Source: Curvibacter sp. PAE-UM
GTDB lineage: Bacteria > Pseudomonadota > Gammaproteobacteria > Burkholderiales > Burkholderiaceae_C
Assembly (NCBI RefSeq): GCF_001432305.1
Contig: NZ_KQ483358.1
Location: 508,790 to 572,789 of the forward strand
Direction of reading: 5' to 3'
DNA length: 64,000 nucleotides
The notes beneath the pieces were generated by a model, which was not told where the DNA came from, searched no databases, and saw nothing but the letters and a program-made list of their open reading frames with translations. The translations under genes and the position numbers were made by a program. This document shows positions 1,805-3,566 of the stretch, one piece after another (position 1 is the stretch's first letter; each line of letters starts with the position of its first letter).

Positions 1805-2233
1805 TCAGAAGGGCTTGACCACCACCAGCACGACGGCCGCCAGCAACAGCAACACCGGCGCCTCGTTGAACCAGCGGAACCAGACATGGCCGCGCCGGTT
1901 CTCGCCGCGCCGGAACTTCTTCAGCAGAACGCCGCAGGCATGGTGGTAACCCAGAGCCAGCGCCACGACCACCAGTTTGGCATGCAGCCAGCCATTGCCC
2001 GGGCCTCGCCCCATGCCATAACCCAGCCAGAGCCAGAAGCCGAAGATCAGAGCCGGTACGGCCAGCACCGTGGTGAAGCGCATCAGCTTGCCGGCCATCA
2101 ACAGCAGACGCTCACGCTCGGCCACCGAGTCGGCCGGCACCATGGCCAGGTTCACGAAGATGCGCGGCAGGTAGAACAGACCGGCAAACCAGCTGGCGAC
2201 GAAGACGATGTGAAGTGATTTGACCCAGAGCAT
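1805..2233 (-). CDS. hemJ: Protoporphyrinogen IX oxidase HemJ (CopD-like)
   Basis: 142 residues, four predicted membrane helices. The N-terminus KSLHIVFVASWFAGLFYLPR carries the conserved HemJ His and Arg. The second conserved block is the basic loop before FRWFNEAPVLLLLAAVVLVV. HemJ is the oxygen-independent heme-linked enzyme that converts protoporphyrinogen IX to protoporphyrin IX in the inner membrane, replacing HemG/HemY. Its position next to hemB, divergently transcribed and 331 bp away, agrees with a heme biosynthesis role and is a common arrangement in Burkholderiales. The length matches the family (about 140-150). It probably leads the minus-strand operon hemJ-vanZ-ferredoxin-hydrolase. 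Confidence 0.9.
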   Translation of the reverse strand: MLWVKSLHIVFVASWFAGLFYLPRIFVNLAMVPADSVAERERLLLMAGKLMRFTTVLAVPALIFGFWLWLGYGMGRGPGNGWLHAKLVVVALALGYHHACGVLLKKFRRGENRRGHVWFRWFNEAPVLLLLAAVVLVVVKPF

Positions 2234-2339: not shown

Positions 2340-2441
2340 CAAAAAAAACCCCGGCCATAAGCCGGGGTTGCAAGCCTTTTTTGCTGTCACACATCAAGGC
2401 CCCGCTCAGGGAGGAAAAGCGGGGGGTGGCGAACCACCCAA
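2340..2441 (-). ncRNA. Predicted small RNA with CCUCCC loop and intrinsic terminator
   Basis: The hemJ-hemB gap (2234-2564, 331 bp) has no credible protein gene. On the minus strand a promoter-like pair TTGCAT (2475-2470) - 17 bp - TAGATT (2452-2447) would start RNA near 2441. The RNA then folds into three adjacent hairpins. The first is GGGTGG-UUCG-CCACCC (2439-2424). The second is CCCCGCU/AGCGGGG (2424-2400) with an 11-nt loop containing CCUCCC. After an A-rich linker comes AACCCCGGC/GCCGGGGUU (2369-2347) followed by eight U, a classical intrinsic terminator. There is no plus-strand or minus-strand gene that this terminator could otherwise serve. The CCUCC loop could pair with Shine-Dalgarno sequences. 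RNA identity is inference; the hairpins and terminator are seen directly. Confidence 0.6.
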
Positions 2442-2518
2442 GCCCTAATCTAACAAAAACGTTCGCCAAATGCAAGCCAGCGCCAGCAAAGCACTGAAAC
2501 CGGACATTTTTGGCATTT

Positions 2519-3566
<1,048 letters not shown>

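Follow-up and report, generated by a model that had tools for sequence, protein, structure and literature searches.

An anti-hemB small RNA of Curvibacter and its possible descent from a sigma-E-controlled polA-engB locus

The gap between hemJ and hemB in Curvibacter sp. PAE-UM raises the question of which small RNA it holds, what this RNA acts on and where it came from. A reading made from the sequence alone had predicted there a minus-strand small RNA that displays a CCUCCC loop and could repress many mRNAs. We examined the element within its window, the whole 64-kb stretch of DNA that was analysed, and compared it with related genomes and with known small RNAs, for which published statements are taken from the accessible passages of the papers. 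The Pfam assignments of both neighbours placed the element in just the gap that had been named (Table 1).

The element belongs to a catalogued family. The sole Rfam match above any cut-off in the whole window was RF02837 (anti-hemB), with a score of 61 bits against a cut-off of 49.5 (E 8.4e-12). In cmscan the match covered the full model (positions 1-81) at 2341-2425 on the minus strand; it ends at 2425, with SL1 outside. The C-rich-loop hairpin, the middle hairpin and the terminator of the family are all present in the window RNA, the middle hairpin fitting the pairs of the model only in part (non-standard pairs were marked). A second match in the same genome (32 bits, L002) was rejected as a chance match, having other hairpins and no GCUUUUCCUCCC loop.

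RF02837 is catalogued as Burkholderia RNA 7, and Rfam terms it a Burkholderia RNA. It is listed among the B. pseudomallei homologues of known sRNAs in the accessible part of PMC3521395. The B. cenocepacia homologue ncS04 is 105 nt long, as inferred from start-site mapping and the terminator; it was co-purified with Hfq and showed no significant change by qPCR in seven conditions (PMC5688073, PMC4603805, accessible passages). The window RNA is like Bc7/ncS04 in sequence, full-model structure, hemB-adjacent position and a length of about 100 nt, and a review gives hemB as the predicted target of Bc7 (PMC6321483, passages seen). Given the RF02837 match and this published homologue, the window sRNA itself is already known: it is an additional copy of a known, catalogued and poorly understood small regulatory RNA. 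The call of a minus-strand sRNA thus agrees with the Rfam match, with covariation and with the published transcripts of the homologue, and the proposed length and approximate 5' end agree with the 105 nt of ncS04. In the accessible passages of the anti-hemB literature, which leave subscription journals largely outside, no demonstrated function was found.

The minus strand at this place folds into four stems and ends in U8, with a minimum free energy (MFE) of -49.0 kcal/mol. Dinucleotide shuffles gave a mean of -35.2 (sd 3.26, z -4.24), and 0 of 200 were as stable. The hairpins, the UUCG tetraloop, the U8 terminator and the -35/-10 elements all lie where the sequence-only reading had put them. 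The terminator is built of 10 pairs (2369-2347) followed by U8 (2348-2341), two of the U being paired; a terminator scan also found it, with a count of 3 for the region versus a shuffle mean of 2.4. The 5' end of the RNA probably lies where the conserved -10 element and SL1 together place it. For hemB, the start at ATG 2565 was chosen from an alignment of relatives.

Table 1. Features at the anti-hemB locus, in window positions.
Feature	Position	Strand	Basis
sRNA gene, anti-hemB RF02837, about 100 nt	2340..2441	-	cmscan; fold z; 5' end placed from conserved -10 and SL1
SL1, 5' hairpin GGGUGG-UUCG-CCACCC	2424..2439	-	covariation; outside Rfam match
SL2, CCCGCUU-UUCCUCCCU-GAGCGGG, displays the CCUCCC loop	2401..2423	-	fold and 91-relative alignment
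CCUCCC, presumed seed, complement GGGAGG	2409..2414	-	unpaired in MFE fold; columns invariant in 91-row alignment
SL3, GCCUU...GUGUGACAGC...AAGGC, weaker stem	2374..2400	-	fold, conservation
Intrinsic terminator and U8 tail (presumed Hfq site)	2341..2369	-	fold, terminator scan, covariation
-35 TTGCAT	2470..2475	-	read from sequence; conserved -35/-10 pair in subtype
Extended -10 TGTTAGATT	2447..2455	-	fits TGNTANANT; conserved
hemB, porphobilinogen synthase, divergent neighbour	2565..3566	+	PF00490, E 9.9e-140, frame 2541-3566
hemJ, same-strand downstream neighbour	1805..2233	-	PF03653, E 2.3e-39

The sequence-only reading had named stems not shared with related genomes as a refutation; a covariance search with Rfam and relatives did not refute it. 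RF02837 matched 126 of 150 genomes of the same bacterial family at E <=0.001, and 117 of 150 above the cut-off. From the 127 family places above the cut-off, 91 were analysed; the other 36 were second copies or unused, and places below the cut-off were excluded. These relatives fall into two SL2 subtypes that differ by a compensated pair, CCCGC/GCGGG in 53 of 91 (the subtype of the window) and CCUGC/GCAGG in 38 of 91, and the loop UUUUCCUCCCUGA was found in 78 of 91. Among the 53 sequences of the window's subtype, SL1 showed two-sided changes at 6 of 6 pairs with 80.5% of cells paired, the terminator showed them at 5 of 7 pairs, and the outer pairs of SL3 were 86-97% paired. SL2 is nearly invariant within this set and therefore yields no covariation there. 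The covariation score of the whole structure was 0.215 against a shuffle mean of 0.122, with 0 of 500 shuffles as high and 0.033-0.106 when the structure was slid; by the tool's own caveat, related sequences may beat such shuffles without structure. The predicted terminator and exposed CCUCCC loop are backed by Rfam, by covariation and by the homologue transcripts. The Rfam model of 81 positions leaves out SL1, whereas the window RNA and its relatives have it; its conservation by covariation is added here.

The family copies had been picked by their RF02837 match, and loci picked by HemB similarity alone served as the independent check. Among the 30 best HemB loci from 60 genomes, the hairpin was found within 1.2 kb upstream in 20, all of them with CCTCCCTGAGC, and not found within that distance in 10; the search pattern required CTCCC. 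Within the loop of SL3, 8 of the 10 positions of GUGUGACAGC are at least 90% conserved in the host family, and this segment may be a second pairing or protein site; CUGACA recurs in Chromobacteriaceae-type copies. One host-family genome (G087; L005, L154-L156) carries six anti-hemB matches, some about 200 bp and 14 kb apart, and tandem copies also occur at L150, L151, L259 and L287.

The promoter read earlier as TTGCAT-17-TAGATT, with its -10 hexamer at 2452-2447 and a TG extension, gains support from the conservation of the extended -10. In the 50 nt that precede SL2, the pattern TGNTANANT was found in 37 of 53 relatives of the window's subtype and in 26 of 38 of the other, versus shuffle means of 0.4 and 0.3. 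The arrangement TTG plus 3 nt, 16-18 nt and TANRNT was found in 43 of 53 CCCGC-type copies versus 3 of 38 of the other type (counts without shuffle control). A promoter scan that demands 9 of 12 consensus matches missed the window promoter. A sigma-70-like promoter in the host family would fit the steady level of ncS04, and the RNA is presumably expressed in Curvibacter sp. PAE-UM as well.

Anti-hemB members above the cut-off also occur well beyond Burkholderia, which is a further addition made here. A search of the class found RF02837 at E <=0.001 in 168 of 369 genomes and above the cut-off in only 21 of 369. Below-cut-off matches were also obtained in 3 of 14 control genomes, so weak matches alone are poor evidence and the flanking genes decide. 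We fetched 64 loci of the class search, 63 from other orders and one (L041) from the same order; 49 of the 64 gave the hairpin by pattern (54 copies), and the other 15 were excluded from the promoter count. In these other-order copies the outer pair of SL2 is CG in 39 of 54, UA in 8, AU in 4 and a wobble in 3, with CUCCC kept (CUCCC was part of the search pattern). A pattern scan of named genomes, which demanded GAACTT, gave at least 119 stretches and was used only for the -10 element, flanks and names. Among its checked sources, 15 of 18 have RF02837 above the cut-off, and several records are metagenome bins. Pseudogulbenkiania reached 70 bits; Paludibacterium, Aquitalea, Chromobacterium, Gallionellaceae, Thiobacillus, Collimonas, Hydrogenophilus, Ectothiorhodospira and Steroidobacteraceae were also above the cut-off, and Thioalkalivibrio, Contendobacter and Salinisphaera below it. 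One named match (L295) is an archaeal record and probably chance. In Chromobacteriaceae-type copies such as L207, a GAACTTT element is combined with a middle hairpin of the window type (GCCUUUUGCUGACACUAAAGGC).

The flanking genes form a chain, with orders written in the direction of the RNA. The window order, hemB< sRNA> hemJ>, is that of 75 of 91 family loci. The order polA> sRNA> engB< was found in 21 of 49 other-order loci and in 49 of 119 named loci among the matches listed. An intermediate order, hemB< sRNA> engB<, occurs in 17 of 119 named loci among the matches listed and in one of 91 family loci (L116). Upstream engB> replaces these in 14 of 119 named loci among the matches listed, polA is reversed in one locus each of the other-order and named sets (among the matches listed), and all four of polA, engB, hemB and hemJ are missing from 9 of 91 family loci, from 8 of 49 in the other orders and, among the matches listed, from 17 of 119 named loci; the remaining loci have only one of two flanking genes. 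For the 64 class-search loci, including L041 of the same order, polA and/or engB lies in the flank of 54, both in 27 and neither in 10. Pfam assigned polA (PF00476) to 7 and an engB-like GTPase (PF01926) to 2 of 20 flanking frames, the others belonging to other families or none. hemB is always divergent in the 22 named loci that have it among the matches listed, and in 21 of these 22 a distance of 34-152 bp separates the beginning of its match from the GAACTT-to-SL2 stretch, with 2.7 kb in L205. In Betaproteobacteria the RNA adjoins hemB.

In nine of the 91 family loci (L005, L006, L007, L010, L011, L012, L016, L018, L061) the fetched flank contains no hemB and no hemJ; by eye, some of these copies have a -10 near TATAAT and a longer SL1. 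Most of the gene-less named loci among the matches listed come from Competibacteraceae (e.g. L187, L200, L232, L266) and keep the hairpin and the GAACTT promoter. As these copies have none of polA, engB, hemB and hemJ in their stretch, the RNA seems to have moved there.

This variety of flanks bears on whether the element is an attenuated leader of hemJ, with minus-strand transcription either stopping at the terminator or continuing into hemJ. The sRNA and hemJ do share a strand in 77 of 91 loci, and the terminator of the window ends about 107 bp ahead of the hemJ start. In the other main arrangements, however, engB lies downstream in the opposite direction, so read-through cannot be the common role of the whole RNA family, and the published homologue ncS04, in the passages describing it, is short, has a start and a terminator of its own and was found with Hfq. 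We regard a hemJ leader as improbable.

The promoters differ between these groups as well. Upstream of the other-order copies we found GAAC-N15-19-GTC, which we take to be the shape of a sigma-E promoter, in 37 of 54 cases, versus a shuffle mean of 1.1 and a maximum of 4; the spacing was 17 in 28 of these 37. The same pattern was absent from all 53 and all 38 host-family copies of the two subtypes, the window included. In the named set, TCNHA lies exactly 16 nt after GAACTT (which was required) in 78 of 123 copies among the matches listed; each of the other offsets examined (12 to 39, counted from the G that opens GAACTT) gave 0-7 copies. The relatives in other orders thus have sigma-E-like promoters, and their promoter shape suggests that they are sigma-E-dependent. 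Two loci are bridges in the chain of flanks and promoters. L116, in the host family, keeps engB and is an exception among the promoters, with TCTAT 16 nt after GAACTT, a sigma-E-like element that the GAAC-N15-19-GTC pattern missed; L041, which belongs to the same order, is flanked by hemB and engB and has a GAACTT...GTC promoter.

The polA locus is also home to other small RNAs. Spot 42 (RF00021; Enterobacterales, Vibrionaceae) has the order polA> sRNA> yihA/engB<, the same as that of the anti-hemB relatives (PMC3295665, accessible part), and in E. coli K-12 we found polA> spf> yihA<. For the Pseudomonas RNA ErsA (Pseudomon-1, RF01719), one strong match (L162, 121 bits) adjoins polA; it resembles the anti-hemB relatives in its upstream GAACTT...GTC and its C-rich terminator loop, and differs in lacking an SL2 hairpin. 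Downstream of it, L162 1725-2237 encodes a sigma-70-like protein (regions 2 and 4), not engB. From the passages available, ErsA depends on sigma-22, the Pseudomonas counterpart of sigma-E, and pairs at the algC ribosome-binding site with Hfq; a review calls it a functional orthologue of Spot 42 (PMC8395346, in part). The Xanthomonadaceae RNA sX13 (RF02232) likewise adjoins polA, as do its strong matches L170 and L171, and in our folds it forms a 5' hairpin followed by C-rich-loop hairpins including the terminator, as anti-hemB does. Its repression of mRNAs acts by way of G-rich motifs close to their start codons (PMC3771888, accessible passages). Unlike ncS04, which co-purified with Hfq, it is reported there as Hfq-independent, with an unstructured 5' region. 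A sigma-E-like promoter was not seen by eye at the sX13 loci. The sX13 authors noted, in the part seen, that the polA locus is common to sX13, Spot 42 and alpha-r7.

None of these families reaches its cut-off in the window. Spot 42 reached 11.8 bits against a cut-off of 80, which shows no sequence relation; RF02232 and RF01719 (cut-off 50 each) were not among the window matches to E 10 and found no match in this genome. Conversely, RF02837 gave no match to E 0.5 at the strong ErsA (L162), sX13 (L170, L171) and E. coli Spot 42 loci, and common descent with these RNAs therefore rests on position and design. In the tandem array at L150, the sX13 model gives 48.3 bits (cut-off 50) for one copy, and the anti-hemB model gives 35.9 bits for this copy and 37.8-41.8 for its sisters; all of these scores fall short of the cut-offs. 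In the accessible, mostly open-access literature, covering at least the matches listed, no link of anti-hemB to polA, ErsA, sX13 or Spot 42 was found.

We put forward the hypothesis that anti-hemB joins ErsA, sX13 and Spot 42, on the basis of position, design, the promoter (for ErsA) and the L150 array. Anti-hemB would then go back, as its branch in Betaproteobacteria, to an ancient anti-Shine-Dalgarno sRNA under sigma-E control, present at the polA-engB locus throughout Gammaproteobacteria; this ancestral locus would also have given the other three, and the host family would have kept the loop and lost envelope-stress control; we hold the chances of this to be about even. The ancestor would have been driven by sigma-E and would have resembled the sRNAs now found between polA and engB in many other orders of the class. 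In most host-family genomes hemJ may then have taken the place of engB, and a sigma-70-type promoter with an extended -10 that of the earlier promoter. This direction of the flank and promoter changes is what we infer from the present-day loci. If the hypothesis is true, one ancestral polA-engB locus gave several textbook sRNAs, and in the host family both neighbour and promoter were replaced around an unchanged loop. Where the promoter is still sigma-E-like, anti-hemB should belong to the envelope-stress response, and targets can be looked for among its genes. This bears on a question raised in the accessible part of the sX13 paper, namely whether other bacteria also have sRNAs encoded at the polA locus and whether sRNAs of related structure act alike. 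Taken as a single locus, the element only adds another copy to a known RNA family; what would surprise specialists is the polA-engB-hemB chain with the sigma-E-like promoters of the relatives.

As to its action, the anti-hemB copy is, with good probability, an independent, Hfq-associated, trans-acting blocker of ribosome-binding sites, probably steadily expressed and of sigma-E-driven ancestry. Its CCUCCC loop is an anti-Shine-Dalgarno core, kept open by a stem in which sequence changes are compensated. The nearly unchanging loop UUUUCCUCCCUGA would keep CCUCCC single-stranded in SL2; the loop may then pair with G-rich ribosome-binding sites, GGGAGG or similar, in a group of mRNAs and block their translation, with SL1 probably protecting the 5' end and the U tail of the terminator presumably binding Hfq. 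Because sX13, of similar design and beside polA, represses mRNAs through G-rich motifs, blocking of ribosome-binding sites is the most likely action, and by the same analogy, together with the near-invariant loop, repression of many mRNAs is plausible.

In the proposed search for targets of the loop, AGGGAGG-N3-10-ATG was found in this genome at 27 places (26 distinct, one counted twice) versus 7 for the reversed pattern. Eleven of the places lead into open frames of at least 60 aa; Pfam was run on 6 of these frames and assigned 4. Only about five places are judged plausible gene starts: a lipase-like frame, a frame without Pfam match, a branched-chain amino-acid ABC ATPase, an alpha-2-macroglobulin-like and a saccharopine-dehydrogenase-like protein. 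They have no common theme, so no target is claimed.

A decoy that titrates a protein or RNA (Hfq, other sRNAs) rather than repressing mRNAs by pairing is an unlikely explanation. The C-rich loops and the U tail are possible binding sites for proteins, and the homologue ncS04 was co-purified with Hfq in the accessible reports, but the loop is nearly invariant in its sequence beyond its C content and equals the anti-Shine-Dalgarno core, and the closest design with experiments, sX13, acts on mRNAs in the passages seen.

For hemB itself as a target of the SL2 loop, the only part of the RNA that this comparison covered, no support was found. None of the 71 loci examined has GGGAGG between -30 and +15 of the hemB start; pairing of the SL2 loop with hemB -20..+100 was no better than with shuffles (mean fraction at least as strong 0.52) and reached the <=5% shuffle level in only 1 of 71 loci. 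Direct or cis-antisense regulation of hemB, to which the Rfam name and, in the part of the review seen, the Bc7 prediction point, is thus very improbable. The RNA and hemB are indeed adjacent and divergent in 80 of 91 family loci, but transcription of the RNA begins about 125 bp ahead of the hemB start and runs away from hemB, its loop pairs there no better than with shuffles, and the other-order copies at polA-engB have no hemB.

A CACAAT-like box lies just before the hemB start (2552-2557 in the window) and hints that some members of the family have a very short leader on hemB. The idea that hemB is leaderless was dropped, the box being found in only 30 of 71 loci.

The Betaproteobacteria toxic sRNA family (RF02278), with S17 of Bordetella, also consists of short hairpin RNAs with a CU-rich segment complementary to ribosome-binding sites. 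It reached 17.9 bits in the window against a cut-off of 50, and S17, from the passages available, has a different genomic place from the window RNA. Elsewhere in this genome RF02278 has one below-cut-off match of 29.8 bits (L121 1501-1576; G000:C1:2116082-2116157, minus strand), which carries UCUCCUC in its 5' part and a strong terminator and is possibly an S17-like RNA.
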